From Cymbomonas tetramitiformis (taxonomy: Eukaryota > Chlorophyta > Pyramimonadophyceae > Pyramimonadales > Pyramimonadaceae): DNA of 64,000 nt. This document shows, piece after piece, positions 26,601 to 55,445 of this stretch; positions within the stretch are counted from its first letter, which is position 1; each line of letters opens with the position of its first letter. The notes beneath the pieces are model-generated. The model saw nothing but the letters and a program-made list of their open reading frames with translations. It was not told the origin of the DNA and made no database searches. Position numbers and translations under genes: made by a program. The stretch is taken from contig LGRX02027640.1 of NCBI GenBank assembly GCA_001247695.2, positions 1 through 64,000 of the forward strand, in the 5' to 3' direction.

Positions 26601-29600
26601 TCCGTGCCTGCATCCTTACACTTCTCGCAGGCAGTGACGAACGTCGTCGAAGCCGTTCAAGCCAGCAACCCCAATTTGAAACGCTTTGTGCTGGTGTCAT
26701 CCATCGGGTACTTGCCTTCTCAGCAACCCCCAGGCAGCCACTTCGTACTGGTATCATACATCGGGCTTGAAGGCTTTGAAGGGAGTTGCATTTGAGCATC
26801 TTGGCGATGTTTCCAGCCGTTGCAAGCTGTATACGTACTGACTGCACCCTCTTGCGTGTTGGAGGCTGGGGCATTGTCCTGATGGACACGACTGGGGTGG
26901 GTAGTGGATAGCGGCGCGTAATGATGCCCGGAGATGGGCGGCAAGGAGTCGACTGACGTTGTTTATCCTCTGCCAAATATATCAGAGTCACGAGGACCAA
27001 CGTCATGCCGTTTCTGTTGTTGAACGCCTTTGGAGTTCTGCACTACAAAGGATTGGCAGAGGACGTTCTGAAGGTAGGGCTTATAGAGTGCCTCCGGAGC
27101 GCCCCCAACTAAACCCTAACTGTCCCCCATTAAACCCTAATTATGAAACTCCCACGGTCGCACGCCAGAGGGGTCAGGCACTCGGGCTTCCGCGGTGCAG
27201 CGTTGTATGTGTAGTAGAGTAGGGGAGCGGAGAGACGCGCTCCATCGAACGTCCATCATCACCCGAACCGCAATCACTCTCCGATCAAACTGCTATCAAA
27301 CCTCGAACTGCAATATCTTTCGATCGAACGCCAATTATAAACCGAACTTAAATCGCTCTCAATCGAACGCCGATCATGGTCCAAACTCGAATATCCCTCT
27401 ATCGGGGTATTGAAGTCCCTGGGGGTGGCTGCTCCACTTGATGGCGGAGTACAGGATACTGGAATACCATATACAATCCTGCGCCCCGGGAGGCTGACGG
27501 ACGGGCCATACACATCCTACGATCTCAATACTTTGCTGAAGGTGCTCTCAAGCTCGTGTTCTTTGAGGGCCAATGAGCATGCGGCCTCGAAAGTGCTTGC
27601 TGATATCCTGCGATGACTTGCACCAATTGTGTGGAGAAGATGCACCTCGGGTGTGGTGCTGGCAACACCTGGCGCCCAACGATCCACTCAGAGCACACCG
27701 CGTCCAAACCATAATCGCTGCACGATGTACATAGTGTAGATCGATGTAGATCGACTCCAACAACGTGCGAGGGTAGACATCCGTGTGTCGAGCTTGTTGA
27801 CCGCGCTCAGGCTGTGGCGGTGAATGCTGGTGCAAGGGCTGCGGATAGGCTGTGGTGGGCATGCAAGGTGTGTAAGGGCAGGCTGGGAGTGACAGGCGCG
27901 CAGGCGCGGCCAGGGGCGGGCAGATATGCAACCAGACAGTGACAGGCGAGGAGGTTTGGGCGATTACCAGGCAAGCATGCAGTGGCAGGCGAGGAGGTTT
28001 GGGCGATTACCAGGCAAGCATGCAGTGGCAGGCGAGGAGGTTTGGGCGATTACCAGGCAAGCATGCAGTGACAGGCGAGGTTTGGGCGATTACCAGGCAA
28101 GCATGCAGTGGCAGGCGCAGGAGGTTTGGGCGATTACCAGGCAAGCATGCAGTGGCAGGCGAGGAGGGGGCGATTACCAGGCAAGCATGCAGTGACAGGC
28201 GAGGAGGTTTAGGCGATTACCAGGCAAGCATGCAGTGGCAGTCGAGGAGGGGTGCGATTACCAGGCAAGCATGCAGTGGCAGGCGAGGAGGGGGCGATTA
28301 CCAGGCAAGCATGCAGTGGCAGGCGAGGACGGGGGCGATTACCAGGCAAGCATGCAGTGACAGGCGAGGACGGGGGCGATTACCAGGCAACCAGCGGGAC
28401 AAAGCGGGATGTACAGCTCGGCTGCGGTGACGTGCTGCTGCCGGAGGCCACTAGTCGGATTGTGTGTGCTGAGGCATGCGTGCAGGTAAAGCTGCGCTTG
28501 GCATGCCCTTCTTGTGTGCGTTGGGGGGTGGGAACCTTAGTTTGGCCCCACTCTGTGACTATATATTGATTCTTGTTTTGGGGTGATGATGGGGCAAAGC
28601 GCTGGTTTGGATGCCGCATCTTGTTTTGGGGTGATGATGGGGCAAAGCATTGGTTTTGATGCCGCCTGGCACTTAGTGTGTTCATGCTTTGCCGTGCGCT
28701 GGCTTTAAGGCCCTCGATGCCCGAGATTGCGAACCGTCAATAATAGCCGTCGTGGCTGCATGTTGTACCCAAGTCGGGGACGCCTCATGCAACTCGTGTG
28801 CATATGCTTAGCCTTACGCTAATTTACAGACCCTCAATAAACAGGATATCATGCCGTCCGAAAATGGGTGTTTGTGTTAATGGGTTTGGAGATCCTTCGG
28901 TGACGAATCTCAAACAAGGCGGATGCACGCGCACATGGCTCTGCTGTCGGGTGCGGTGGGAACCGCAGCGGGGACCCGCGGCGTGTGGGCTGTATCTTGT
29001 CACAAGTTGTCCAGCTGAAGATTGATTTATGACATATACATCTTGGGGCGGTGGTTGACCTCGAGCAGTGCCTCTTGTATGCTTGCCTTTGCGCCGAAGT
29101 CCAGACACTCAATACCATAGATGTCAGACTGGCCAAGAAATTCTATCGAGCTGCTCGATGTGTACGAGCTCTTTTTCAAAAGAAATCGTGATCCAACGGC
29201 ACTACTCCATCTTGGACCGCTTAATGGAAGAATGGCAATCTGTCGACGTTCCCAATGAATCAGGCATAGTCGAAACGAGTTGTTCGGGTTGTTTGAATCG
29301 ATTACTCGCAGATTGCCATTTGTCCATTAAACGGTTCAAAATGATTGAGTGACTTTGGGTCACAATTCTTCTGAGAAGGAGCTCGTACAAGTATGTGTGT
29401 GATGCGCAGAACCGCAAGAAGCTTGTGTTCTCTCGATGCACGCTTTTGCTTTTGCTTAGGTTGCACTCTTCTTCTTTTCGCTATTGTATACTCGTTCACA
29501 ATTGTATCGCTCAGGTCACACTGCTCTTCCGTTCACTATATGTTGCCAGCTCCAGGTTGTTGAATCGACTGCGGCTGATGTCCCAACACAATGTCATGTG

Positions 29601-33086: not shown

Positions 33087-35780
33087 TTGGAGCTGAAAAT
33101 TCACGCACGCGATACTTCGATTGAAAAGAGAGCTGCTCACGTAATTGAGAGGCACAAACGAAGCAGTATGCATCCTAACGTACTGTCTTTCCCACGTAAC
33201 CACGGCAGACACGCACACGACCGCATACACGTTAAGCCGCAAGCATTTCAGTTGAATTATAAAGTAGTTTGGGGATTTGGACTAACGGGAATTCACAGTT
33301 ACATCGTCACTGAAACAACGGAAAACAATCCGCTGGAACATTCTCAGGGAACTGAATTGATAAACCCAAAAGTGAGATCTAACGCGGGGCCTTTCATTTT
33401 GACTGTTAGATACAGACCTTTCACACTGCCACAAACGAGTCATAGAGTGACTAAAAAGCCCGCCGTTCACACGAGCAGTATGCATTCCTACGTTCCGTCC
33501 CTCTCACGAAACCACTGCAGATATGCACACGACAGCATACACGATAACCCACAAGCATCTCAGTTTGATTATAACGTTGTCTGGGGATTAAAATTAATAA
33601 CGAAAAACCACAGTAACATTGCCACTGAAACAACGGGAAACAACCTGTTGGAACATCCACAGAGAATTGAAACGATTAACCCTAAAGTGGAATCTAACGC
33701 GGGGCTGCTCATTTTGACTGATAGATATAAACATCTCACACCACCACAGACGAGTCATCGTGTGACTAAAAAGCCTGTCTTTCACACGAGCAGTATGCAT
33801 CTCTCTGTCTCGTCCCTCTCACGAAACCACGGCAGATATGCACACGACTGCATACACGATTACCCGCGAGCATCACAGTTGGATTATAACGTTGTCTGGG
33901 GTATAAGATTAACGGAAAATCACAGCAACATCGCCACTGAAACATTGGGAAACAACCTGTTGGAACATTCATAGAGAATTGAAACGATAAACCCTAAAGT
34001 GAGATCTAACGCGGGGCTTTTTATTCCGACTGTAAGTAAACCTTTCACATTGTCACAAACGAGTCATCGTGTGACTAAAAAGCCTACCTTTCACACGAGT
34101 AGTATGCATCTCTCCGTTCCGTCCCTCTCACGAAACCACGGCAGATATGCACACGATTGCATACACGATAACCCACAAGCATCACAGTTGATTATAACGT
34201 TGTTTGGGGATTAAGATTAACGGAAAATCACAGTAACAGCCACTGAAACATCGGAAACAACCTGTTGGAACATCCACAGAGAATTGAAACGATTAACCCT
34301 AAAGTGGAATCTAACGCGGGGCTGCTCATTTTGACTGATAGATATAAACATCTCACACCACCACAGACGAGTCATCGTGTGACTAAAAAGCCTGTCTTTC
34401 ACACGAGCAGTATGCATCTCTCTGTCTCGTCCCTCTCACGAAACCACGGCAGATATGCACACGACTGCATACACGATTACCCGCGAGCATCACAGTTGGA
34501 TTATAACGTTGTCTGGGGTATAAGATTAACGGAAAATCACAGCAACATCGCCACTGAAACATTGGGAAACAACCTGTTGGAACATTCATAGAGAATTGAA
34601 ACGATAAACCCTAAAGTGAGATCTAACGCGGGGCTTTTTATTCCGACTGTAAGTAATAAATCTTTCACATTGTCACAAACGAGTCATCGTGTGACTAAAA
34701 AGCCTACCTTTCACACGAGTAGTATGCATCTCTCCGTTCCGTCCCTCTCACGAAACCACGGCAGATATGCACACGATTGCATACACGATAACCCACAAGC
34801 ATCACAGTTGGGTTATAACGTTGTTTGGGGATTAAGATTAACGGAAAATCACAGCAACACCGCCACTGAAACATCGGAAAACAACCTGTTGGAACATCCA
34901 CAGAGAATTGAAACGATTAACCCTAAAGTGAGATCTAACGCGGGGCTGCTCATTTTGACTGTTAGATATAAACATCTCACACCACCACAGACGAGTCATC
35001 GTGTGACTAAAAAGCCTGTCTTTCACACGAGCAGTATGCATCCCCTCCGTCTCGTCCCTCTCACGAAACCACGGCAGATATGCACACGACTGCATACACG
35101 ATTACCCGCGAGCATCACAGTTGGATTATAACGTTGTCTGGGGTATAAGATTAACGGAAAATCACAGTAACATCACCACTGAAACATTGGGAAAGAACCT
35201 GTTGGAACATCCATAGAGAATTGAAACGATAAACCCTAAAGCGAGATCTAACGCGGGGCTTTTTATTCCGACTGTAAGTAATAAACCTTTCACATTGTCA
35301 CAAACGAGTCATCGTGTGACTAAAAAGCCTACCTTTCACACGAGTAGTATGCATCTCTCCGTTCCGTCCCTCTCACGAAACCACGGCAGATATGCACACG
35401 ATTGCATACACGATAACCCACAAGCATCACAGTTGGGTTATAACGTTGTTTGGGGATTAAGATTAACGGAAAATCACAGCAACACCGCCACTGAAACATC
35501 GGAAAACAACCTGTTGGAACACTCACAGAGAATTGAAACGATTAACCCTAAAGTGAGATCTAACGCGGGGCTGCTCATTTTGACTGTTAGATATATTTCT
35601 TTCACACCGCCACAAACGAGTCATTGTGTGACTAAAAAGCCTGCCTTTCACACGAGCAGTATGCATCCCCTCCGTCTCGTCCCTCTCACGAAACCACGGC
35701 AGATATACACATGACCGCATACACGATCATTTGCAAGCATTTCAGTTGGACTATAACGGTGTCTGGGGATTAACGGAAAA
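33087..35780 (+). repeat. ~312-bp satellite array, nine units, coding-like
   Basis: The anchor (CACGAG)CAGTATGCAT recurs with ATG at 33168, 33480, 33795, 34104, 34412, 34724, 35036, 35349 and 35661; spacing 312, 315, 309, 308, 312, 312, 313, 312. Units 4, 6 and 8 (AGTAGTATGCATCTCTCCG) differ from units 3, 5 and 7 (GCAGTATGCATC.CTC.GTCTCG), so the array is built of ~620-bp dimers. In the plus strand each unit reads as a 104-residue repeat (HTSSMHLSVPSLSRNHGRYA, IETINPKVRSNAGLL, HRVTKKP). The first three units form one open frame of 296 codons; later ones carry stops or one-base indels. The array ends abruptly at 35780 in the middle of a unit, where the giant gypsy element begins. Confidence 0.85.
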
Positions 35781-37890: not shown

Positions 37891-40800
37891 ATGATGCAGA
37901 ACGCCAACACTGGACGCTCCCCTCCAACGTCGCCCACGTCGACTCCCAGGCGTACAAGGGGACGGCAGGCCAGTCAGCGCAGTACGAGAGGTGCTGCAGC
38001 CACTGGAACCACTGGCAAGGGGGCGAAGGGCACCTACAAGGCGCCCTCTCCGGGTCAGCCGCCGCAGGCTGCGACAGCAGCAGGTGCGCCAAGCTTCCAG
38101 ATACCCAAGAAGAAGTCGACCCTGTCAGCTGATGCTCCTGAGTTTAACAGCGTGACTCCTCTGGCTCTGGATTCTGGAACAGCTTGTGTGACACCTCCCC
38201 TGGAGGAGGCTGTAACGGTACCTAAACAGCACCCTAATCCGCCTCTGCGTCCTGCAAGAGCGGCGTCACCACGGGTGCTGACTGTTGACACCCCTGGTGC
38301 AGGGCGAAACATGAGAGCGACTCCCCAGCGGTATGTCAACTCAACCTCTCCTTTCCCTGGCATCCTGCGACTGTCCGGAAGCCGCGACCTGAGCCCTCCA
38401 GCTCCGCGCCAGCGAAGCCCGCCTCGGACTCGAGACCGGACCCCGCCACCGCCGCGCTGCAGGAGCCCACCGCGGACGCGCGACATGAGTCCTCCAGATC
38501 CAAGACCGCGAAGCCCTTTGACATCCTACAGGACTCCACACACTTGGTCTGGAGCTACGGTGATGACCTCCCCGCACGGCCAGCTGCCCACGCCATTCAT
38601 CGAGAACGCGCTTCAGGCTGAGTCCGCGGGAGCAGCCTTTGCGGGACCATCTCTACCTGCTGACCGACCACCTCGCGACCCGATCGCTGCGCGCGAAATG
38701 ACCGAGGTCAACATTGCAGCATGTGAGCAGGACATGCAGAATGAGGCGAATGAGCAGAGACCAGGACTTCGCCAATTTCCCTCCCGCTCCGATGTGGCCA
38801 ACTGGCGAAAGCGCCAGCAGCCGGGTGAGAATCTCGCCTGGACTCCGCGCCCTAACCAAGGGGGTGTGGGGGCAGCGGGGAGGTCAGAAGACACGCACCA
38901 AAGCATTGCTGGCGAACCCATGGCACACTCAATGCATCCAACTCCCTCCTCAACAAGCAACGGGGAGGTGGGGGCAGCGGGGAGGACAGGTGGCTCCGGC
39001 TTGACAGGTGGCCCACGCCACATAAGCATAGCATGTTCTGGGCATTCGCTGACATCGCCGCTTATTACGGAGAAGGTGAACGGTGACTCTCTGACCTCAC
39101 CGATTACCGATACCGTTACGGAACCTAAGGTGATCGGTGACTCTATGGCAAGGTTGTCGGTGACTTTCGAGTCCGAGAAAGACAGCGAGGCAACTTCATT
39201 GACGCCTTCACTGACTCAGGCGACTACGGAGGCAGCTACGGTTACGGATATGCTCGAGTCCCTGTTGAACAGCGAGTCCAGACCTTTGACTACCTCGCTG
39301 ACCTCAACAACTACGGATATGCCCGAGTCCCTGTTGAACCGCGAGTCCAGACCTTTGACTACCTCGCTGACCTCAACAACTACGGAGCAGCCAGTCAGCA
39401 CAGTCAGCTCAGTCAGTTACGCCGACCTCGCACTCAGGCGTGGCGTTGGACTCGCAGCCTACCAGCCGCCTCCTCTTCCAGTCATCGAACCCCCTTCTCA
39501 AGCAGATGTCCTCAGCAGAATTCCAGTCAGAAACTTACCTCTGAACCAAGACTCAGTGAACCAGCTTTCTCGCCGGGAGAGGCGCCATCAGCGATGGGAA
39601 CAGAATCAGCAGCGCCTGGCAGAACAGCGCAGAGCACTCTTCTCTGACCCCGCCTCAGCCAGAACGCCCTCAGATGCCTCGGTCCCCGCGCTGAACCATC
39701 AGCATCAATCCCTAATGCAGAATCAGATGATGTTAGAAGTATCAGAGTACATGCAAAATCTACATCAGCAAGTGCTCCAACACTATCCTCATCTGACTTC
39801 GGTTCTACCAGCGGTGGGCGCTCCACCTATGACGCCCTACCAGCACACCTTAGGATGGGCGAGCGGTTTACCAGGTGCACCGGCGCCAGCTGCTGGATCA
39901 GGTCCTTGGCTGGTACCAGCACCGGCTCAACTAGTTCCCGCACCGGCTCAACCGGCTCCAGCACCGGCTCAACCGGCTCCAGCACCGGCTCAACCGGCGC
40001 CGGCACCATTTCAGCCATATCCACCGGCTACCGGTGCATCGCCTTCTGACTCCGCTGAGCCTGATCATCCGTCACCAGGAAACTCGCCCCCGCCTTCAGA
40101 CAATGGTGAACCACGACACAGGCGTCTAGATGTGTTGCTATGGACTTTAGAAGGAGCCTCCTTCTGGTTGAGAAATCACCTGTCCTCTTCCTCCGCAGTG
40201 ACTGTCAGCCACGGCGCTGAGGCACAATATTCTTACCGACTGCCAACCATGCCTGGAAGCGCCAGTCACTTCATAACCGATACAAATCGGATTTGGATGA
40301 CTATGCGACACATCGGAGTGGACATCCAAGACCTGGCGCAGCATGGGTCAGTGCATACTCCTGTGCGCCTGACTGAGATTGAGGACAGTGACGCTTTCAC
40401 TCTGGAAGTGGAGAAAACGCAAGTGGATGAAGCGCGGCGTTGCGCGGAAAGCCGTACTGGAACTCAGCAGAGACGCCTGCCATTGTACTCCTGGGTGACC
40501 ATCGCGGAAAATGCCTTAGAGTCCGAGTTGACAGAATTTGACCCCCTGGGACTCCAAATTTGGGCAGCATTTTCATCCTCCGAGGCGTACTTGTTTCGAG
40601 GAATGGCGGCTGGCAACCAACCAACTCCCGCCACAGTACCGGCTAGACTGGGCGTCAACCGGTTTCCCTCTGGTGTTCCCAGCGCAGAAGAGTACAGATC
40701 GCCTGGAAATTCCTTGCCAGCGGCCCCGGGACTCCTGCCAGTGGACCAGCGCCTTTCTCAATTCCCAGGGCACCACGATCTTATGGGAGCGGCTTCTCCA

Positions 40801-41952
40801 GGTGATGTCTACCGAGAATCCAAGACAGTGGCTGATGTGCTCAAGCTGATCAGAGACATTCCTATGTACCCCTCCTCCGCTGAACTAATCACCACTGACG
40901 CTGACATTGCCGCGCTTCCACCTTTTTCTGAAGCGCTGGTCAATTTTCTGTCAATGGGCGTAGTCACCTTCGCCCTGGGTCGCATGAGTGCTTATCGCCT
41001 AGACCTGACCATGATCACCATGCCGGAGATCTTGAAGGAAGTGGCGCAACGCAAACTGCAGCCGCGATCCCTTACTTTTCTCAAGCAAGGTGGTATGTTG
41101 AACTCGGAGGCCTGGAACCGGCGTTACGCCACTTTGGCGCCTTTCCTGGCCGACGTAGCCAGGAGCGTACTGGATGACATCGCGCTGGTAGGACTAGCGG
41201 GGACCGTGATGCGCATGGCGCAGCGACGAGAAGAGACTGCGCGTTTGTTCGCCACTCGTCTGGTATCCTGGCACGAGGTAGTGCAGTTATTGGCAGACGC
41301 CATGCCCAACTGCCACGCCATCAGCCAGCAGCAGCTATTATATCAGTTCTGGTCTGGACTGCGACTGAAGCAAGCTGTGATGGATCGCCTCATTGAGGAT
41401 CGGTTGGATCTGCAAAGTCCAGCGGATTGGGAGAGCAATCATCCCGGATCCACCGCGCTGCAGCATATCATCACTGTGGCCACCAAATTGGAGCGCAGTG
41501 AAGCTCTGACCGCAGCGCGAACCTCTCCCGCCTCGGCACCTGCGAACCGAAGTCCTGCCTGGAGGAATGGTCGCTCGTCCTCCAGACTTAACGCCGTGCA
41601 GGACGCTGGGGAGGAAGACACTACTGACCTCGACCCCGCCGACCTCAGGGTGCAGCACGCCGTGCCGCCCAGCCCGGCGGGATTGACCAGGCCGCCACGC
41701 CGATGCTACGTCTGCAACTCTGACTCCCATTTATGGGCTAACTGCCCCGACGAGGCCAAGAAACGAGCCTGGATTGCTGACGCCCCAGCTCGTTTGGCAC
41801 GCCGCCGCGCTGCAAATGAATCTCATATCGCAGCGCTGGAGACAGAATGGGAGGATTTGGAAGATGAAGCGGAAGCGCTGGAGTATTTTCAGAACGAGGA
41901 ATCGGCCGCAGCGTCCTCCTCGGGTCAGCAATCTGCGGAGGAGGAGGACTGA
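37891..41952 (+). CDS. gag: Gag polyprotein, 1353 aa, CCHC zinc knuckle
   Basis: ATG (ATGATGCAG) and open to TGA at 41950. N-terminal half is disordered: RS/RP repeats (RSPPRTRDRTPPPP), Thr/Ser tandem repeats (a 60-bp unit with PESLLN.ESRPLTTSLTSTTT twice near 39250-39390) and a PAPAQ repeat near 39.93-40.0 kb. The middle contains the conserved segment shared with ORF A. The C-terminal third has the helical capsid-like region (LFATRLVSWHEVVQLL, YQFWSGLRLKQAVMDRLIED) typical of gypsy Gag, and a CX2CX4HX4C knuckle (CYVCNSDSHLWANC) at ~1271-1284 that binds element RNA. The length is two to three times that of usual gypsy Gag. Ends with an acidic tail. The frame after the TGA stays open to 42321. 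Confidence 0.85.
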   Translation: MMQNANTGRSPPTSPTSTPRRTRGRQASQRSTRGAAATGTTGKGAKGTYKAPSPGQPPQAATAAGAPSFQIPKKKSTLSADAPEFNSVTPLALDSGTACVTPPLEEAVTVPKQHPNPPLRPARAASPRVLTVDTPGAGRNMRATPQRYVNSTSPFPGILRLSGSRDLSPPAPRQRSPPRTRDRTPPPPRCRSPPRTRDMSPPDPRPRSPLTSYRTPHTWSGATVMTSPHGQLPTPFIENALQAESAGAAFAGPSLPADRPPRDPIAAREMTEVNIAACEQDMQNEANEQRPGLRQFPSRSDVANWRKRQQPGENLAWTPRPNQGGVGAAGRSEDTHQSIAGEPMAHSMHPTPSSTSNGEVGAAGRTGGSGLTGGPRHISIACSGHSLTSPLITEKVNGDSLTSPITDTVTEPKVIGDSMARLSVTFESEKDSEATSLTPSLTQATTEAATVTDMLESLLNSESRPLTTSLTSTTTDMPESLLNRESRPLTTSLTSTTTEQPVSTVSSVSYADLALRRGVGLAAYQPPPLPVIEPPSQADVLSRIPVRNLPLNQDSVNQLSRRERRHQRWEQNQQRLAEQRRALFSDPASARTPSDASVPALNHQHQSLMQNQMMLEVSEYMQNLHQQVLQHYPHLTSVLPAVGAPPMTPYQHTLGWASGLPGAPAPAAGSGPWLVPAPAQLVPAPAQPAPAPAQPAPAPAQPAPAPFQPYPPATGASPSDSAEPDHPSPGNSPPPSDNGEPRHRRLDVLLWTLEGASFWLRNHLSSSSAVTVSHGAEAQYSYRLPTMPGSASHFITDTNRIWMTMRHIGVDIQDLAQHGSVHTPVRLTEIEDSDAFTLEVEKTQVDEARRCAESRTGTQQRRLPLYSWVTIAENALESELTEFDPLGLQIWAAFSSSEAYLFRGMAAGNQPTPATVPARLGVNRFPSGVPSAEEYRSPGNSLPAAPGLLPVDQRLSQFPGHHDLMGAASPGDVYRESKTVADVLKLIRDIPMYPSSAELITTDADIAALPPFSEALVNFLSMGVVTFALGRMSAYRLDLTMITMPEILKEVAQRKLQPRSLTFLKQGGMLNSEAWNRRYATLAPFLADVARSVLDDIALVGLAGTVMRMAQRREETARLFATRLVSWHEVVQLLADAMPNCHAISQQQLLYQFWSGLRLKQAVMDRLIEDRLDLQSPADWESNHPGSTALQHIITVATKLERSEALTAARTSPASAPANRSPAWRNGRSSSRLNAVQDAGEEDTTDLDPADLRVQHAVPPSPAGLTRPPRRCYVCNSDSHLWANCPDEAKKRAWIADAPARLARRRAANESHIAALETEWEDLEDEAEALEYFQNEESAAASSSGQQSAEEED

Positions 41953-42411
41953 GTGTCCTCCCGCCGGCGGGACGCCGGCGACAGGGCGGTATGGGTAACC
42001 GCCCCTGGGCAAGGAGTACAGCCTTCGCCCACAACCGAGGGAATATCCAGAAGGATCCTCCGCCACCCCCCAACCCTCTGGCCGCTCGAGGATATGGATT
42101 CACCTGGTCTGCCGATCAGAGGCGACAACGCCATCTCGACAGAACCAGAACCCTACGGGATGAACCCTCGTTGTCCAGTACCGCTGTTTACACAGCAAAC
42201 CTTTCCACTGAGCAGAGCCGGCGAGAACATCACTTGGTTTCCCGGCGCCATCAGCGGTCGCCACGAAGGTCACCCACTTCGTCGCCTGAGCGCTCCAAGC
42301 CTCCCGTTATGTTCAGTGTAGATCGCTCCCTTGGAACTGGTGATCGCTATCCAGCTCCACGACGCGAGCGTGGCGAAACGCCCCGCGTTGACCCCACAGA
42401 CCTTGGGGATA

Positions 42412-42445
42412 CCCTAACCCTAACCCTAACCCTAACCCTAACCCT
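42412..42445 (+). repeat. Telomere-type tract (CCCTAA)n inside the element
   Basis: 34 bp of uninterrupted CCCTAA, five and two-thirds copies. In the protease frame it encodes Asn-Pro repeats, in the alternative frame Leu-Thr repeats. It lies between the gag stop and the protease ORF. Confidence 0.95.
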
Positions 42446-42571: not shown

Positions 42572-44383
42572 GTGGAGCGGATGCGAGCCTTGAGGCAGCG
42601 GATCCAGGATGTAACGCTACCCGCTGTTTCACACCCTCTGGACGACAGTGGGGAGGAAGGGGGTGGAACTTCAAAAACTGGCCCAGCTTCCGAACCCCCA
42701 CCTTTTAAACTTCGACCTGAGGTGTTTCCTTCGACGTCTCGACCAGCAGCGTGTCCAACCTGGGCAGAGAGGGCGTCAACCCCAAGCGCAGAGCGCCCTA
42801 CGAGCGCAGCGCGCAAGCGCACTGGAAAACCTCGCAGCAGAACTCCGAAGACTGTACGAGACCGACTGCAGCATGAGGCAGAGGTTACGAGGTTGGGAGA
42901 TGAACCCCCAGGACTTCGAGCGGAGTCACTGGCGGATCGCACGCGCGCTTGGAGAGAGATGACGCACCCGGAGCACATGGCCGCGGCGGCGCTGGTAAAG
43001 GAGAATGAGAAATGGAGAGATGCATGGGTACCCGAAGGGTGGCGCAGATATCGCCACCGCTGGTACAGATGGCATGGGAAGGTCACCCCTGACCTGACGA
43101 TAACCGAAGGAGCAGTTCAGCTATCTCTGGAGACCGAGTGCAGTACTATCCCAGGTTCTGGTGGAGATGTAGGAATTCCAGACGCCTGGTGCAGTCTATA
43201 CCGGGTGCACCAATGGAACCAGCGAGAAAGGGAAGCTGCGGAAGAGGCTGCTCACCTGGCCCTACCATCAACAGCAAGTGATTCATTCTCCCTGGACTCA
43301 GCGGAACCATCAGAGGCGAATCCAGCGACAACTCTGGATTTGACCTTATCTCCATCCAGTTCTCAGCCCGCAACTTCTGGGGACATTTCAGACCTCGAGG
43401 ACTCCCAGCGGTCGCTCAACTTCACGCAACAGTTGATGGAGCGACAGCTGGCCACCGCCAGATCGGAGAACAATCCAAGTGTGCTGACAACGGTGACAGA
43501 AGGAGTGGAGCCGACTCCCCTGAAAACCATCCAGGAGGAAACCCACCTGGAACTGCTACTAACCATTCAGAAACAGCAACGCCATCGTCTGCGGCCGATC
43601 CTGGAAGGTAATGAAGCAGTGGCAGCACCAGCGAACGTCACCGACGCTCAGGCGGCACCGCGGGAAGAAGAAACCCCCTCTTTCACTCCAAAGTCCGAAC
43701 CAGAAGATAGCTCTGGGGAGGAAGAGGAGGAAGAGATTTCCATCCAACCTCTTCGCTCTTACCCTCTGGAAAGCCGCACGCAGAGCCGCGCCAGACGACG
43801 CGCTCAAGGACAGGAGCGACGCGCCAAGGAGCGACAGCTACAAGCAGATCGCGAACTGGAAGGTGGATGGTACTTTGGTCCGGATCATCGTTCTCAGCCT
43901 GCACCACCGCGCACAAGACCTATCCGGTCTAAGCAGCGCGTACCTTTGCATCACCCAGTGCGAGCAGCCATCTGTGCACATCTGCGACGCGATGGTCAAG
44001 TAATGTGGAACCAGGACAGTCAGCTAACTGCGATTCGGGACAAAGAGGGAACGCTGCTATTGGTGTTCTGGGCCTTGCTGAAGGGACAGCGAGTGCGCGT
44101 GCTGGTGGATTCTGGGGCCTCGGATGAATTCATCTCCAGTGAGTGCGTCAAGAGATTGAACCTCACAGTTCGCGCTAATGGAATGCCGCTGAACGTTACC
44201 CTGGCGGATGGGTCAGTGCAGACCTCTGCGCAAGTCGCTTACGGCAAGCTGACCGCCGAGACTTCAGAGGGGACTTACTCCGAGGTCATCAAGATGCGAG
44301 TACTTTCCTCTGGGCATCAAGGTGGACATTGTACTCGGAGGAAGGTGGTTGAGACACCTCTCGCCGGTCACGCTGGACTATGA
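42572..44383 (+). CDS. pro: Protease ORF of the giant gypsy element
   Basis: The open frame extends upstream to about 42390 (through the Asn-Pro telomere-type tract) but has no ATG near its start; the listed start is a GTG. The first ~480 residues are acidic or Arg/Gln-rich and unfamiliar (EEEEEISIQPL, RARRRAQGQERRAKERQLQA). The retropepsin active site LVDSGASDEFIS is at ~512, with a normal D-S-G-A. The last residues of this frame are out of phase: the flap and C-terminal DIVLGGRWL are encoded in the pol frame. The CTTT at 44303-44306 is the junction; one fewer T or a +1 slip at CTT-T gives VLPLGIKVDIVLGG. How ribosomes reach this frame from gag is unclear. Confidence 0.7.
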   Translation: MERMRALRQRIQDVTLPAVSHPLDDSGEEGGGTSKTGPASEPPPFKLRPEVFPSTSRPAACPTWAERASTPSAERPTSAARKRTGKPRSRTPKTVRDRLQHEAEVTRLGDEPPGLRAESLADRTRAWREMTHPEHMAAAALVKENEKWRDAWVPEGWRRYRHRWYRWHGKVTPDLTITEGAVQLSLETECSTIPGSGGDVGIPDAWCSLYRVHQWNQREREAAEEAAHLALPSTASDSFSLDSAEPSEANPATTLDLTLSPSSSQPATSGDISDLEDSQRSLNFTQQLMERQLATARSENNPSVLTTVTEGVEPTPLKTIQEETHLELLLTIQKQQRHRLRPILEGNEAVAAPANVTDAQAAPREEETPSFTPKSEPEDSSGEEEEEEISIQPLRSYPLESRTQSRARRRAQGQERRAKERQLQADRELEGGWYFGPDHRSQPAPPRTRPIRSKQRVPLHHPVRAAICAHLRRDGQVMWNQDSQLTAIRDKEGTLLLVFWALLKGQRVRVLVDSGASDEFISSECVKRLNLTVRANGMPLNVTLADGSVQTSAQVAYGKLTAETSEGTYSEVIKMRVLSSGHQGGHCTRRKVVETPLAGHAGL

Positions 44384-47300
44384 TGGGTGGGGATCAGTCA
44401 AGTTTCGCCATCATGGCAAATCTGTGCGGATACAGGGATGTTCGCCGGGGCGTAGCTCCACGCGCAAAGGCGAGAGAACCGCGATGGCTCTGGAACCGAT
44501 GGTAATATTATCTGCGGCCCAAGCGACCAAGGAGATCAAAGCCTATCGGCGCAGATATGCGGGAATGGACAGTGCCGCGACACCCCACGACATCTTAGTG
44601 GCCTATGCGACACCTTTGGTAGGGACTTCGATGTTATCAGCGATGGCCACCAGCGAGAATTTGGAGGACCCTTCAATCTCCCCCGAGTGGAGAAAGAAGT
44701 TTCAAAAGCTGATCGAGTCCTTTTCACCTCGAGTAATTCGCGAAGCGCTGCCCAACTTTGACGCCCTGCGAAAAGATGAAGTGGCCCATGTGAGACTGCA
44801 AGAGGGATGGAATGGTATCGCGCCCGCTAAGAGGCCCTATAAGATGTCCATGGTGGAGCTGACTCAACTGCGAGAACGCCTGGATGAACTCCTGAGCAAG
44901 GGCTACATCAGGCCTTCCTCAAGTCCGTTCGCTGCACCAGTGCTGATGGTTCCCAAGCCTGGGAAACCTGAAGTACTCAGAATGGTCTGCGACTTCCGAG
45001 CCATCAACAGCCTGACCGTCAAGGACAAATATCCACTTCCCGACATTCAGCAGTTGTTCGACTCCATGCATGGGGCCAAGTACTTCTCCTCCTTCGATGC
45101 GGTCGATGGATTCTGGCAGATGGCTATGGCGTCTGAGGATGTGGAAAAGACGGCGTTCACTTCTCCCTATGGCTCGTATGAGTGGTTGGTGATGCCCATG
45201 GGGTTGACCAACAGTCCTTCCTGCTATCAGAGACGCATGCAGCGCGCTCTGGGACATCTTCCTTTTGTAAGAATATTCCTGGACGATTGTATCCTCTTCA
45301 GCAACACCTTGGAGGAGCATCTTTCCCATCTCCAGCAATTTCTCGAAGTCTGTGAGAACCAGGGTATCTACCTCAAGGAGTCTAAGTGTCAACTACTGCA
45401 GACCCAGATACGCTTTCTGGGGCACGTTATCTCACGGGAAGGAAGTCAACCTCAACATGACAAGTTGGCCGCCATCAGGGACTGGCCCGCTCTGGAAAAC
45501 GCCACGCATGTGCGCCAATTTTTGGGGTTGGCTGGGTACTACCGGCGGTACATGCTGGGCTTCTCTGAAGTAGCACAACCCTTGACTCAGCTCACCAAAG
45601 GGGATGTCGCTTGGCTATGGGGACCCATGCAGCGTTGGGCCTTCGAGGAGATTAAGAAGGCGCTATGTTCTTCACCCACTCTGGCGCTACCCGATATGAA
45701 AGCGGCGGCCGAAGGACGGCATCCTTTCGTGGTACAAACTGACGCCAGTGGAGTGGCGCTGGGGGGAGTACTGATGCAAGACGTAGGAAATGGATTGCAA
45801 CCTATCGCCTTTGAGAGCAGACAGTTTAATGGAGCCGAGCAGAACTACCATGCTGGCGAAAGAGAACTCTGCGCTCTCCATCACTGCACTACGCAAACTT
45901 GGCGACACTACCTCATCTGGACCGAGTTCCAATTGCAGGGTGACCATACGCCCCTAGTCTGGTTAATGGCACCCGGACAACCTCTCAGCCGACGCCAAGC
46001 CCGATGGTACATGGATCTAGTGGAGGTAGGGGTACCCGAGATGGAGTACATTCCTGGGGCGCTACTCTGGGTTCCAGACGCTCTGTCCAGGCGACCCGAC
46101 TACAAGGAAATTTCCGCGAGAGAAGGACTGGTAGAAGCTGGCTTTGTGCACCCGGTTACTGGGAAACCGCAGCGACCTCCTTCAGCCGCAGACACTGCCA
46201 ACAAGTTTCGACCTGCCGCTGGTAAAGAGTCTCGCCAAGGACGTGCGCCCCTGGGAGTGGTAGATCCCAACAAGTTGAAGGAGCGCAAGTCCAACAGCGC
46301 CAAGACCAAAGATCCTGAACCAGTTCTCGCGTACAGTGGGACTCTCACCTGGATGGACTCCCCTCAACTCTGGATGGACGCCTTACATACCCTGCAGCTG
46401 GCCGAAACCGGGTACGAGGAAGCAACCCTGGCAGTTCAGACGCGCTCTGGCAAACTGACAGCATCCTCGCCTCCTTCTCCCAGGAAGACCCCTGTTGACT
46501 ACTCAGCAACGCCGAAGTGCAGCGAGGCCTCAACCAGACTCCTGGAGCCCAGCGACCGACAGGACTGGAAGTTCCGTGCGGACATGTTCGACTTCTTGAG
46601 TCAAGAATATGGACCTTTCGAGGTGGACGCCTGTTGCGACTTGGGAGGAAAGAATCGTCAGGTCAACCGCTACTGGACGGACTGCTTGAAGGAAAACTGG
46701 CGAGGGTTGAACGTCTGGTGCAATCCTCCCTTCTCCTCCAACCATTTGACCATCGAGGCCGTACTGAGGAGATATGTGGAAGAATGGCGTCTGGACCCTG
46801 AGAATACTTCAGCTCTCTTTGTCCTTCCTGACTTTCAGTCTCGCATGCCACAGTGGCGGCAGTTGTTCAGATCTGCGGGAATGAGAGTGGAGTACATTAT
46901 TCCTACCCATGACGCTCAAGGAGAACCTGTGCAGATGTTCGCTGCCCCGGATGGAGCCCTTCTGGATCTCCCTTGGCCCCTGCTAGTGGTGTACGCCCCG
47001 CCAGCTCGACAGCGTGTCAAGCGGGAAAGGAAGACGAGTTCCCCTCCTCCTATCGTGCGTACTGGAGAAGCGGCCAGCGTTCGAGACCTTCGTCAGCAGA
47101 TATCAGGAGGTCAGTTTCTCAAAGCGCTGCAATTGGAATATGGGCGACCTGGCCCCCTACAGACGTTAATGAAAGAAATCCAAGAAGCTCCGCATCAACG
47201 CACTCGTGACTTCTGCGTGGTGGGAAATGTGTTGTGGTGGGTGAGCGCTGGACGCTATCAGTTGGTACTGGGAGAAGATTCACCACTCCGTGAGGTGGTG

Positions 47301-49565
47301 CTGCAAGAGGCGCACGCCTCTGTTTCAGCTGGACACGCGGGCAGGGACAAAACTCTGGAACGAGTCCTGCGACGCTTCTGGTGGAAAGGGGCAGCAGAAG
47401 ATGTGGGACGCTGGGTTTCATCTTGCGCTATCTGTCAAGCGGTGCGACCGAGAAATTCTTACCCGGATGGATTGCTGAACCCACACACTATTCCTACGCG
47501 ACTATGGCAAGTGGTCAGTGTGGACTTTGTTACTGGACTGCCAGTCACGGCGCGGAATCACGATGCCTTTGCTACTTTCACGTGTAAGCTCAGCAAAATG
47601 GTTCACATCATCCCGTTGAACTTCCAGGACAGCTCCGCTGAGGTTATAGCTCGAATCTACTTCGACCACATCTGGAAACTACATGGCACCCCTATGAAGA
47701 TTGTCTCTGACCGCGACCCTCGTTTTCAGGATGCTATGTGGAAGGAATTGATGAGACTTATGGGAACCAAAGTGGCCTCCACTACGCCTTATAACCCTCG
47801 TTCGGACGGACAAGCTGAACATACCAACCGCGTGGTAGAAGACATGCTGAGGTCCTTCGTAGGCAGCAATCCAGAGGACTGGGATTTGTGGTGTGCCAAC
47901 GTGGAGTTCGCCATAAACGATACGCGGAGCGATGTAACCGGCTTTACCCCTTTTGAGTTGGTCTTGGGGCACTCGCCTATGTCGCAACTGGACTTGTTCC
48001 TGCAAGCCGCTGCTGGACAACACTCCAGGCGCAAGGGTGGAGAAGGTACTGCCCACGAGATGGCTAGTAAATTCGCGGCTCAACTAGAGGACGCCCGCAC
48101 TAAGCTAGAACTGGCACAGCAACGCCAGCGACATCAGTTTGACCAGCGTCACACCGCCAAATCCTTTCAGTTGGGAGACTTGGTCTGGGTAGATGCCAAG
48201 CATCTCACGGAAAATATCATGAACCGCGAATCCTTCAGGAAGCTGGGACCTCGCTGGCACGGGCCCTTACCCATCACCGAGAGGTTCTTCAGTGACCAGC
48301 AGCGAGAGCTACCCGAAATTGACAGAGGTGCTCCGGTGGCTTATCGGCTCAAGTTACCCCCTAAATGGCGTATCCACGATGTTTTTGCGCAGCATCGCCT
48401 CAAGGAATACCGCACTGCGGATGAAGCTTTTGCGCTGCGTCAGCAAACACCTACTCCTGCCAAGGTTCTCGTGGATGGACAATCCCAGACACATGTGTCT
48501 AAGATTCTGGCTCGAAGAGTGAAACCTACGAGAGGAGGTAAGGAAGTAGAAGAATTTCTGGTTCGCTGGACTGGGTACTCTAATGCTCATGACTCCTGGA
48601 AGACTCGCGAGTCGTTGAACTACGGGGGTGAACTCGAACAGCTCACAGAGTTTGAACAACTGAGACTATCCCGAGAAGGACAAGCCCGCGAAAAAGCCTT
48701 ACAGGAGGTCAGAATGCAGCGGAAGCAAAGGCGGGAACGCGCCAGAGCTCTAACCTTCCTGGACACCGCTGATAAAGGGGAACCTCTTTCTCTGGACAAC
48801 TGCCTACCTTGGGAACAATACTGTCGCTCCTCTGACGCCTTTGTGACGCATCTGGCTCTTCTGGACTCTGTGGTCTCGACACGCGAGTTGCGACTACTAG
48901 TACTTTTCAGTGGTACAGGTAGTGTGGAGAGAAGTTTCCTGTCATGTTATCCGAAGAGTACCGTGGTCACCGTAGATCATGATCCTCCGCATGATCCTCG
49001 CTGGCAACCTACCTACGCTGAGAAGGTTCAGGACTGGGACTTCAAGCGTTACGCGCCTGGTTACTTTGACGTCATCTGGGCTAGCCCACCGTGCACTGAA
49101 TACAGTCAGGCTAAGACCACAGGGGTGCGACAACTGCGACAGGCTGATGCATGTGTACGCCGTACGCTCCAAATCTTCGACTTCCTCAAACCCAAGCATT
49201 GGTTTATGGAAAATCCGATGGGCAGGTTTCCCTTTGCGCTGCGATTTCGACCTGTAGTTCGCCGGTTACCTACTCCGTTGTATTGCTCTTACTGTATGTA
49301 TGGCACTGGCTACCGCAAGCCTACTTGCATCTGGACACAGTCGCCTCCTCCAGTGGACCTGCGGTACTGTACGATGGATACTCCTTGCCTTCACCAACAG
49401 ACGCTGGGATCACATCCGGAAACTGCTCAACTGGGGCCTCACCCTGGGCAACAAGGAGCGGGAGTCTCCGCTGCTGTATACCCTCTGCCCTCTGGATTGC
49501 TTCGCCAACTCTTCGAGCACCTGTTCGATCAGAAAAGCATGTCACGCATCCATAAGCATGGCTGA
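44322..49565 (+). CDS. pol: Pol: RT-RNase H-Dam MTase-integrase-chromodomain-C5 MTase
   Basis: 1747 codons, uninterrupted. Order by residue: end of protease (1-40); RT (~190-370; SPFAAPVLMVPKPG, active site FLDDCILFS at ~317, LDD for the usual YxDD); RNase H (~465-590; QTDASGVALGG, HTPLVWL, VPDALSRRP); an inserted Dam-like adenine methyltransferase (~745-895; DWKFRADMFDFLSQEYGPFE, VDACCD, WCNPPFSS, FVLPDF); integrase finger and core (~985-1180; HASVSAGHAGRDK, CAICQA, VDFVTGLP, SDRDPRF, DGQAEHTNRVVE); chromodomain (~1390-1430; FLVRWTGYSNAHDSW); C5-cytosine methyltransferase (~1520-1745; LVLFSGTGSVERSF, ASPPCTEYS, WFMENPMG). No stop or shift. The start is a GTG in mid-protein, so it is made as a fusion with the protease ORF or by frameshift. 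All key motifs look intact, so the enzymes may be active. Confidence 0.9.
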   Translation: MDIVLGGRWLRHLSPVTLDYDGWGSVKFRHHGKSVRIQGCSPGRSSTRKGERTAMALEPMVILSAAQATKEIKAYRRRYAGMDSAATPHDILVAYATPLVGTSMLSAMATSENLEDPSISPEWRKKFQKLIESFSPRVIREALPNFDALRKDEVAHVRLQEGWNGIAPAKRPYKMSMVELTQLRERLDELLSKGYIRPSSSPFAAPVLMVPKPGKPEVLRMVCDFRAINSLTVKDKYPLPDIQQLFDSMHGAKYFSSFDAVDGFWQMAMASEDVEKTAFTSPYGSYEWLVMPMGLTNSPSCYQRRMQRALGHLPFVRIFLDDCILFSNTLEEHLSHLQQFLEVCENQGIYLKESKCQLLQTQIRFLGHVISREGSQPQHDKLAAIRDWPALENATHVRQFLGLAGYYRRYMLGFSEVAQPLTQLTKGDVAWLWGPMQRWAFEEIKKALCSSPTLALPDMKAAAEGRHPFVVQTDASGVALGGVLMQDVGNGLQPIAFESRQFNGAEQNYHAGERELCALHHCTTQTWRHYLIWTEFQLQGDHTPLVWLMAPGQPLSRRQARWYMDLVEVGVPEMEYIPGALLWVPDALSRRPDYKEISAREGLVEAGFVHPVTGKPQRPPSAADTANKFRPAAGKESRQGRAPLGVVDPNKLKERKSNSAKTKDPEPVLAYSGTLTWMDSPQLWMDALHTLQLAETGYEEATLAVQTRSGKLTASSPPSPRKTPVDYSATPKCSEASTRLLEPSDRQDWKFRADMFDFLSQEYGPFEVDACCDLGGKNRQVNRYWTDCLKENWRGLNVWCNPPFSSNHLTIEAVLRRYVEEWRLDPENTSALFVLPDFQSRMPQWRQLFRSAGMRVEYIIPTHDAQGEPVQMFAAPDGALLDLPWPLLVVYAPPARQRVKRERKTSSPPPIVRTGEAASVRDLRQQISGGQFLKALQLEYGRPGPLQTLMKEIQEAPHQRTRDFCVVGNVLWWVSAGRYQLVLGEDSPLREVVLQEAHASVSAGHAGRDKTLERVLRRFWWKGAAEDVGRWVSSCAICQAVRPRNSYPDGLLNPHTIPTRLWQVVSVDFVTGLPVTARNHDAFATFTCKLSKMVHIIPLNFQDSSAEVIARIYFDHIWKLHGTPMKIVSDRDPRFQDAMWKELMRLMGTKVASTTPYNPRSDGQAEHTNRVVEDMLRSFVGSNPEDWDLWCANVEFAINDTRSDVTGFTPFELVLGHSPMSQLDLFLQAAAGQHSRRKGGEGTAHEMASKFAAQLEDARTKLELAQQRQRHQFDQRHTAKSFQLGDLVWVDAKHLTENIMNRESFRKLGPRWHGPLPITERFFSDQQRELPEIDRGAPVAYRLKLPPKWRIHDVFAQHRLKEYRTADEAFALRQQTPTPAKVLVDGQSQTHVSKILARRVKPTRGGKEVEEFLVRWTGYSNAHDSWKTRESLNYGGELEQLTEFEQLRLSREGQAREKALQEVRMQRKQRRERARALTFLDTADKGEPLSLDNCLPWEQYCRSSDAFVTHLALLDSVVSTRELRLLVLFSGTGSVERSFLSCYPKSTVVTVDHDPPHDPRWQPTYAEKVQDWDFKRYAPGYFDVIWASPPCTEYSQAKTTGVRQLRQADACVRRTLQIFDFLKPKHWFMENPMGRFPFALRFRPVVRRLPTPLYCSYCMYGTGYRKPTCIWTQSPPPVDLRYCTMDTPCLHQQTLGSHPETAQLGPHPGQQGAGVSAAVYPLPSGLLRQLFEHLFDQKSMSRIHKHG

Positions 49566-49627: not shown

Positions 49628-49644
49628 AGCTAAGAGGGGAGGAG
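49628..49644 (+). promoter_or_regulatory. Polypurine tract
   Basis: AAGCTAAGAGGGGAGGAG sits just upstream of TTGTGCC, as expected for the plus-strand primer of a gypsy element and the start of its 3' LTR. It is ~60 bp after the end of pol. Confidence 0.6.
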
Positions 49645-49924
49645 TTGTGCCAGGGAACACTAGCCATGCCAAACTATTCGATTGGCATATTGTATTTACG
49701 CGTACTGGAGCAGTGAAATGGCAATGGGCTCGGAAGGGGACTCCCGAGCCATTGACTTCGTACTATGGGGAGCGAAAGCCTGGACTGGATTATAGCTGGC
49801 AGCATATTATCGTCCACCCTTCTGGTGCTCTACGCCGCTGGGAGCGTAATAGGGGCGGCGGCTGGTTTCTGGAAGACGCCACTCAGTTGAAGGCGCCGGT
49901 AGCGCCATTCTCATTACCGATCAG
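49643..49924 (+). repeat. 282-bp segment shared with the gene at 54.3 kb
   Basis: Matches 54394-54675 with two substitutions, in the same orientation. It begins at the polypurine-tract junction (AGTTGTGCCAGGG) and ends at CCGATCAG followed by GTTGCT. It is therefore either the 5' part of the 3' LTR or an exon-like fragment of the 54.3-kb gene. Confidence 0.9.
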
Positions 49925-54280: not shown

Positions 54281-55445
54281 ATGGCACCGCGTAAGGCGCT
54301 TGAGGAAATTTTGCCATACCTTATTGCGATAGGAACCTTAGCGGAATGTATTCCTCAGGATAAATGGCCGCTTCCACCAGAATGCAACGCTGAAGTTGTG
54401 CCAGGGAACACTAGCCATGCCAAACTATTCGATTGGCATATTGTATTTACGCGTACTGGAGCAGTGAAATGGCAATGGGCTCGGAAGGGGACTCCCGAGC
54501 CATTGACTTCGTACTATGGGGAGCGAAAGCCTGGACTGGATTATAGCTGGCAGCATATTATCGTCCACCCTTCGGATGCTCTACGCCGCTGGGAGCGTAA
54601 TAGGGGCGGCGGCTGGTTTCTGGAAGACGCCACTCAGTTGAAGGCGCCGGTAGCGCCATTCTCATTACCGATCAGCAGCATTGGGCGCGGGAATCCGACG
54701 ATTGTGATTGACGATGACGAATATCGTGGAATTCCCTACACGGGGCGTAAGCCTGTACACTCAGAGCCTACAGACAGTGACGATTCGGTTACAGGCGCTG
54801 TGTCCTGGAGTAAAGAGAAGTTACCGGATTCTGATGACAATGATGACGCGGGTGTCACTAACAGTAAGGAGAAGCTACCAGGTTCGGATGACAACGATGA
54901 CGCGGGTGTCACATATGACATGGACACTGCCAGTCCGAAATGGGAGCCAACCTCGCCCGAATATGATGACACCGAGGATGACGTCAGCGAGTTCGATGAC
55001 TTGGTAGCTGACGATGCTGAAGAACAAGCTGAAGCTCGAAGGTTGAAGAGACTGGGACTGCAATTGATCATGGATGAGAAGGGTGAACTTATCTGGGTGC
55101 CAAACAAAGGGCACTTCCCCGACCTCACCTGTTCAGCCAGAGGATCCGCCTATCACCGAGCAGGAGTCTGAGGCCATATCTGAGGATGCCCCAGCCTCTG
55201 TGGTGGAGACTGTTCATGCACCACCGAAGAAACCTTATGGGTCAGATACTGGATTGACTTCAATGGGTGAGAATAAGGCTGGGGTGTCTGAAGAGACGAA
55301 GAGGCAACCTAGGAAATATCCGAGATGTTGGACACATGAGTATATAACTCAATTGAAGTATTCCATAAGAAGTGACAGTGATGAAGAAGAAGTGCTTGAC
55401 GTGGCTCCTCGTAGGAAGAAAGCAAAGATCAGCAAGGGACAATGA
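54281..55445 (+). CDS. Acidic repeat protein, frameshifted, shares 282 bp with gypsy 3' end
   Basis: ATG at 54281 (MAPRKALEEILPYLIAIGTL); 296 codons in the first frame, then the sequence moves to a second frame at or near the C4 run 55117-55120 and ends at 55445 with a basic tail (RRKKAKISKGQ), ~385 residues in all. Residues ~38-131 are the 282-bp shared segment (LFDWHIVFTRTGAVKWQW, RWERNRGGGWFLEDA). After this come two tandem copies of SKEKLP.SDDNDDAGVT, then acidic segments and PPKKPYGSD. Low-complexity acid and a Lys/Arg tail suggest a nuclear protein; no domain recognised. The frameshift could be a homopolymer error. The hairpin array just upstream may act in its promoter or be unrelated. 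Confidence 0.5.

Follow-up and report, generated by a model that had tools for sequence, protein, structure and literature searches.

In a 64,000-nucleotide stretch of the genome of Cymbomonas tetramitiformis, a marine pyramimonadalean green alga (contig LGRX02027640.1; referred to here as the window), a single gypsy polyprotein (Pol) carries both an adenine and a cytosine methyltransferase-type domain together with a chromodomain, an architecture that is held with near certainty. Judged by its domain content, the window pol is part of a large Ty3/gypsy-type retrotransposon, and by its sequence relationships the element is a member of an old clade in which a Dam-family domain follows RNase H and, in most members, a compact C5-cytosine methyltransferase (C5) domain lies behind the integrase and chromodomain. 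The findings suggest that dual-methyltransferase elements of this kind may place chemical marks on copies of themselves.

Domain architecture of the pol reading frame

The pol open reading frame (ORF; 44322 to 49565, forward strand, stop at 49563-49565) encodes 1747 amino acids (aa) in one uninterrupted frame, as stated in the initial annotation, which had been made from the sequence alone. Domain limits in the window copy were taken from hidden Markov models (HMMs) built on the window pol. All on the forward strand, these comprise a reverse transcriptase (RT) core (44934-45458; RVT_1, E 5.1e-32), RNase H (45618-46025; RT_RNaseH, E 2.6e-27), a Dam-family (PF05869) N6-adenine methyltransferase domain (46554-47006, residues 745-895), an integrase with zinc-binding and core parts (47286-48116; Integrase_H2C2, 67.1 bits; rve, 26.2 bits), a chromodomain (48465-48665; Chromo, PF00385, 30.1 bits, cut-off 25.1) and a C5-cytosine methyltransferase domain (48882-49517, residues 1521-1732). 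Pfam returned the order RVT_1, two RNase H models, Dam, the integrase zinc-binding domain, a weak integrase core, a Tf2-type SH3 domain, Chromo and DNA_methylase; the zinc-binding H2C2 match was well over its cut-off (67.1 vs 25.5 bits), and the rve core was under its own (26.2 vs 32.6). The Pfam matches show the order that defines Ty3/gypsy elements, protease, then RT-RNaseH, then a DDE-type integrase, and also the chromoviral trait of an integrase followed by a chromodomain. A DIRS retrotransposon was considered and rejected: the pol has an H2C2 and rve integrase, and the tyrosine recombinase PF00589 was absent from the two ORFs scanned.

The two methyltransferase-type domains

The NPPF-type domain that had been noted between RNase H and integrase is a Dam match well above threshold (PF05869, E 3.2e-9, 37.1 bits vs cut-off 28.1), which spans the first half of the domain only (profile 7-78 of 169), and the NPPF motif is intact at 46722-46733. 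The PHROGs DNA methyltransferase family phrog_111 matched residues 744-822 (E 9.3e-11), and PF05869 was matched by all 14 aligned Dam members at E<=0.1 (best E 4e-13). Among Dam domains with at least 80% coverage (71 of 82 kept, window included), the catalytic motif [ND]PP[FYW] reads NPP[YFW] in 56 and is broken in 15, while two other core residues are kept almost throughout (D769 in 70/71, P836 in 71/71). The best solved fold match was PCIF1 (PCIF1/CAPAM), an RNA cap adenosine methyltransferase, while the sequence indicates PF05869; a sequence search of solved structures found no solved PF05869 structure. The domain is a candidate adenine-N6 writer on DNA.

The C5-type domain reported behind the chromodomain is present, with SGTGS at 48909, PPCTEYS at 49086 and FMENP at 49203. 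An HMM check proposed for both domains succeeded for Dam and failed for the window copy of C5: DNA_methylase (PF00145) scored 16.5 bits on the full window pol (E 0.0058) and 20.0 and 20.5 bits when the C5 slice was scanned alone, under the cut-off of 22. This sub-threshold score is not taken as a refutation because the DNA methyltransferase family phrog_757 matched the C5 slice at E 1.1e-16 (E 1.2e-15 across residues 1520-1688 of the pol), 12 of the 13 members of the C5 alignment matched PF00145 at E<=0.1, three relatives passed its cut-off (P0042, 26.2 bits; P0045, 26.1 bits; P0023, 27.8 bits), and the structure model is a C5 fold in which the S-adenosylmethionine (SAM) motif, the PPC loop and the ENx motif are all present.

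Of the 63 C5 domains, 50 were covered to 80% or more and kept, and GxGS, D1552, SPPC, ENP, K1666, T1668 and W1671 are invariant in all 50. Motif VIII, generally given as QxRxR, is not in this C5, and the site reads [RKM..]K-x-T-x-I-W. The predicted fold ranked DNMT3A first, while none of the 32 solved-structure sequence matches with E<=0.1 is named DNMT3 and the best is DNMT2; by profile, the domain is nearest to phage families and DNMT2. A Dnmt3-type identity, such as that of the C5s in Klebsormidium and in Symbiodinium DIRS elements, is not shown for this C5 by these sequence comparisons.

Architecture among relatives

Three protein searches gave 155 relatives, and all counts of 156 proteins include the window's own. 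Two of the searches were queried with the Dam and C5 regions and took only proteins 0.55 to 1.75 times the query length, so that stand-alone enzymes were out of reach; the third contributed the best 120 of 5818 matches. RT, RNase H, Dam, integrase, chromodomain and C5 occur in identical order in 47 of the 156 proteins (HMMs built from the window pol), so the architecture is conserved in other copies; the initial annotation had named its absence from them as the sign of a chance chimera. Dam and C5 occur together in 59 proteins, any Dam in 82, any C5 in 63 and neither in 70, and an integrase is also present in 46 of 47 C5-search matches, a search that admitted long proteins only.

Phylogenies were built from database matches, with no reference chromoviruses included. 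In the RT-RNaseH tree (77 rows), the Dam-bearing elements except P0045 fall in a 66-row clade (Shimodaira-Hasegawa-like approximate likelihood ratio test, SH-aLRT, 99), and the Dam clade of the RT-RNaseH-integrase tree (54 rows) comprises 49 rows (100/100). Forty-eight of the 66 rows were kept as complete (at least 300 residues beyond the integrase) and 18 were dropped as incomplete. Dam and a chromodomain are present in all 48 complete members and C5 in 43; the Dam motif is intact in 35, of which 34 also possess C5. Because Dam and C5 served as queries, the values of 48/48 and 43/48 are not unbiased frequencies. The aligned Dam motif is missing in 13 of the 48, the window copy not among them. 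On the tree, the Dam motif state requires at least eight changes across 48 rows (36 intact), and C5 presence requires three. Another chromatin reader, a PHD finger, lies between Dam and integrase in P0016 (1137-1181) and P0154 (1244-1296).

A second arrangement, in which C5 lies ahead of RT, was found in P0042, P0045, P0046 and P0047, all four outside the Dam clade. The order in P0045, a distant gypsy element, is C5, SLBP, Dam (27.0 bits, cut-off 28.1), RT, RNase H, integrase and Chromo (31.7 bits), its Dam match being partial (model 54-145 of 146, 39.7 bits). The C5s of these four proteins fall inside the single retroelement C5 branch described below, and the simplest reading of the sequences is that one retroelement C5 family moved between gypsy lineages.

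Some individual proteins had further features. Residues 553-623 of P0045 form a histone RNA hairpin-binding (SLBP) domain (81 bits, cut-off 27) within a gypsy polyprotein, and P0042, which has an N-terminal C5, has a C-terminal Tudor-like match at 1542-1592 (PF21743, 22.4 bits, under the cut-off of 27.2). The Cymbomonas protein P0048 has ankyrin-type repeats and part of a C5 from this family (111 bits) but neither RT nor integrase, and is possibly a host capture or a gene-model fusion.

The nearest proteins to the window pol are the annotated C. tetramitiformis proteins P0018 (CYMTET_48393) and P0049 (CYMTET_53375), for both of which the identity is 99.3% across Dam and 100% across RT. The C5 match of P0018 covers just the opening 81 of 212 residues; the gene model then enters sequence matching 49737-49922 and 54488-55442; the annotated copy therefore conceals half of the C5 domain. 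The window C5 has four additional residues after D1552 that are missing from P0018.

Conservation and descent of the domains

The median pairwise identity among the 40 elements with all six domains was 0.49 for RT, 0.56 for RNase H, 0.39 for Dam, 0.45 for integrase, 0.38 for the chromodomain and 0.49 for C5. Relative to P0003, the window copy is 92% identical in RNase H, 90% in integrase, 86% in RT, 83% in Dam, 73% in the chromodomain and 70% in C5; the linker adjacent to Dam is 60% identical over the alignable 132 of 171 residues. The C5 and RT/integrase trees (42 rows) have 28 of 39 splits in common, compared with at most 2 in 200 label shuffles, and this agreement indicates that C5 descended together with the polymerase. 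Among domains with 80% coverage, catalysis has never been seen lost in C5 and has been lost repeatedly in Dam, since the motifs are intact in 50/50 C5s and broken in 15/71 Dams with at least eight changes.

A search for phage-type relatives of the C5 gave 14 phage records, the best of them 31.3% identical across 90% of the query. A further phage C5 search gave 431 stretches, of which 80 loci were kept, with 79 domains reduced to 39 by removal of near copies. All 27 retroelement C5 rows form one branch (100/100) against these 39 phage C5s, in a tree of retroelement and phage C5s that has no eukaryotic host DNMTs and is compatible with a host origin. None of 160 viral loci had both domains together, or an RT or integrase match.

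Upstream reading frames, ends and other features of the window

Upstream of pol, a gag-like ORF of 1353 aa (37891-41952, forward strand) encodes a C-terminal CCHC zinc knuckle (CYVCNSDSHLWANCP), and an ORF of 603 aa (42572-44383, forward strand) ends in an aspartyl protease (Asp_protease_2, 34.2 bits, cut-off 24.3). Positions 40303-41262 of the gag-like ORF match the N-terminal 320 aa of P0049 at 98% identity, and residues 306-1055 of P0049 match the window pol at 98%; because P0049 joins both at this identity, the gag-like ORF and pol belong to one element family. The protease ORF overlaps pol by 62 nt in a different frame, so that gag, protease and pol occupy three separate frames in the window; in the relatives P0002 and P0003, the protease frame runs on into the pol frame within a single predicted protein. 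A telomere-like CCCTAA run is located at 42408-42445, inside the 5' part of the element.

Downstream of pol, a polypurine-tract-like run (AAGAGGGGAGGAG; 49632-49644, forward strand) lies just 5' of a TG at 49646, a possible start of a 3' long terminal repeat (LTR). The first 20 nt of 49643-49924 have no upstream copy within the window, and the LTR at 49646 is for that reason a candidate. Positions 49643-49924 return as a 282-nt direct repeat at 54394-54675 (99% identical), the second copy lying inside an ORF at 54281-55171, and P0018 passes from its C5 into the 282-nt repeat and then into 54676-55442. The repeat may be an LTR, a captured gene fragment or an insertion with duplication. An initiator-tRNA-type primer-binding-site pattern, in its commonly given form, had three matches in the window, below the chance expectation.

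Elsewhere in the window, tblastn with the pol detected a second gypsy pol on the reverse strand (14769-11069; 29-35% identity), with RT-RNaseH at 14514-12763 and integrase at 12441-11854, separated by approximately 320 bp with no Dam or C5 match, which provides an internal contrast. Tandem arrays are present at 33162-35780, 6948-8501 and 27928-28393, with periods of approximately 312, 137 and 85 bp, respectively.

Discussion

In searches of open-access literature, outside which most subscription papers lie, no element with both adenine and cytosine methyltransferases was found, in line with the initial annotation, which knew of none with both next to a chromatin reader. Each kind of domain has been published separately, C5 in gypsy and DIRS elements (PMC5890265) and Dam in DIRS elements (PMC3266345, PMC3783388), and Morozov et al., who name green algae as one of the groups with gypsy and DIRS elements that encode DAM and DCM, do not describe the two in a single element in that account (PMC6338049). 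KnitGypsy-Dnmt3 of Klebsormidium nitens (de Mendoza et al. 2018, PMC5890265) is, like the window element, a Ty3/gypsy element with C5 in Pol, and purifying selection on its C5 was reported; however, that C5 is of the Dnmt3 class, its repeats are DIRS-like and its description mentions no adenine methyltransferase, whereas the window C5 is phage/DNMT2-like by profile and is accompanied by Dam. SymbioDIRS-Dnmt3 and SymbioLINE-Dnmt of dinoflagellates also have a retroelement-borne C5, but these are tyrosine-recombinase and long interspersed (LINE) elements rather than integrase elements, with no Dam reported in the same element in that account (PMC5890265). Conversely, the RT-RNaseH-MT pol of DIRS1-type elements shares with the window a PF05869 Dam-type domain right after RNase H, but these elements have a tyrosine recombinase and lack DDE integrase and protease, and their descriptions mention neither C5 nor chromodomain (PMC3266345, PMC3783388). 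In Ectocarpus, a Sola element encodes a ParB-methyltransferase protein (PMC12477816).

In Cymbomonas itself, Burns et al. (2015) reported three scaffolds with >10,000x coverage that resemble chromodomain, RNase H and cytosine methyltransferase sequences; these were not recognised as one polyprotein, and that account mentions no adenine methyltransferase (PMC5741210). Very probably these scaffolds represent this element family, the C5 half of which would thus have been glimpsed in 2015. A later long-read study of Cymbomonas mentions a chromoviral pol, and the word "methyltransferase" appears nowhere in its main text (PMC10675990).

We propose a mechanism in which the C5 would write 5-methylcytosine (5mC) on the element's own cDNA or insertion and the Dam-family domain would act earlier; as a whole, we hold it tentatively, at somewhat less than an even chance. 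After cleavage of the polyprotein, C5 would remain attached to the integrase and chromodomain, and this unit would travel with the cDNA to chromatin carrying the mark read by the chromodomain, where C5 would methylate the cDNA or the fresh insertion and its flanks. The new copy would carry from the start the methylation that tolerated host repeats have, and would thereby avoid being recognised as foreign DNA or harming the host. The Dam-family domain, adjoining RNase H, would act on cDNA or the RNA template, and its catalysis may be useful yet dispensable, having been lost in several lineages that retain the fold. Support comes from the position of C5 directly behind the integrase and chromodomain in 47/156 proteins, its unbroken catalytic motifs, a median identity equal to that of RT, its tree agreement with RT and integrase, the better preservation of Dam than of its linker, and the presence of C5, Dam and Chromo in another order in P0045. 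Plant chromomethylases (CMT3/ZMET2), in which a histone mark is coupled to cytosine methylation, may offer a functional parallel, combining chromodomain and C5 in a single protein; they are host genes with the chromodomain sited otherwise and without polymerase or integrase. The nearest published argument, by analogy, is cDNA self-methylation as proposed for SymbioDIRS, the Dnmt3 domains of which methylate CG de novo in yeast (PMC5890265), and prasinophytes have high CG methylation (PMC12695648).

Several observations weigh against this mechanism. The activity of both Dam and C5 is predicted from sequence and fold, and the mark that the chromodomain would read in this alga is postulated. Five of the 48 complete members (P0134, P0139, P0140, P0142 and P0145) are without C5, so C5 is not essential to the lineage, and in the close comparison with P0003 it is less conserved than Dam, RT, RNase H and integrase. 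SymbioLINE-Dnmt gave no DNA methylation in yeast (PMC5890265), so a retroelement C5 need not act on DNA. Elements free of methyltransferases persist, for example in Symbiodinium (PMC5890265), and in tblastn the Dam and C5 parts of the pol matched nothing in the second gypsy element of the window.

The initial annotation's interpretation is partly supported: the domains, their order and their conservation stand, while the first domain is a possible rather than an established N6-methyladenine writer on DNA, given PCIF1 as its best solved fold match and the loss of the motif in 15/71. PCIF1 as the nearest fold raises an RNA substrate, in which case Dam would modify the element's own transcript with N6-methyladenosine (m6A) or an m6Am-like, cap-proximal mark that serves stability, packaging or evasion, and C5 would act on DNA. 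This is considered unlikely: fold likeness to PCIF1 says nothing on substrate, the fold ranking had no fair competitor given that the sequence search found no solved PF05869 structure, and by sequence PF05869 is matched by every one of the 14 aligned members, phage DNA-methyltransferase families coming after it. The broken motif IV in 15/71 Dam domains that all keep P836, the repeated changes of motif state and the 13 complete members without an aligned motif (not including the window copy) would fit domains that have ceased to be needed as enzymes, with Dam and possibly C5 as nucleic-acid-binding scaffolds or passengers. The intact C5 motifs in 50/50 and the retention of the motif by the window Dam and its close kin, in a domain better conserved than its linker, make this similarly improbable.

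A protective function, in which the marks shield cDNA from putative restriction-type endonucleases encoded by giant or polinton-like viruses, or in which the enzymes hit viral DNA to the benefit of the host, would accord with the antiviral role proposed for DAM- and DCM-bearing retrotransposons by Morozov and colleagues (PMC6338049) and with the integrated giant virus and many polinton-like viruses in the Cymbomonas genome (PMC10675990). Two marks with different base specificity would also suit defence against more than one enzyme. We regard it as distinctly improbable, since repeated loss of the Dam motif speaks against a need for both marks. The Cymbomonas assembly is rich in repeats (LTR elements, 15.3% of 914 Mb; PMC10675990), a setting in which an assembly chimera or chance fusion could arise, but the same six-domain order in proteins from separate contigs and the agreement of the C5 and pol trees reduce that chance to a negligible level, and a chance chimera is rejected.

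An extension of the proposed mechanism, which we consider rather doubtful in its entirety, is that a single polyprotein lets the marine algal retroelements of an entire clade put two chemically distinct methyl marks on their own genomes. The RNase H-linked domain would place an adenine N6 mark on the RNA or the nascent cDNA, and the integrase-chromodomain-C5 unit would place 5mC on the fresh insertion. This would be an old, retroelement-owned toolkit passed between gypsy lineages and present in P0045 in a different order, and the element rather than the host would set the epigenetic state of new copies.

Retroelements are usually viewed as targets of DNA methylation, and here a conserved, high-copy clade brings its own C5 and Dam domains beside a chromatin reader. 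The contrast within one protein, in which C5 catalysis is invariant and Dam catalysis is repeatedly lost, is a natural experiment on which mark matters. Through this clade it becomes testable whether an element can write the epigenetic state of its own insertions, why it would invite a silencing-linked mark, and whether the methylation of algal host genomes is shaped by elements of this kind.
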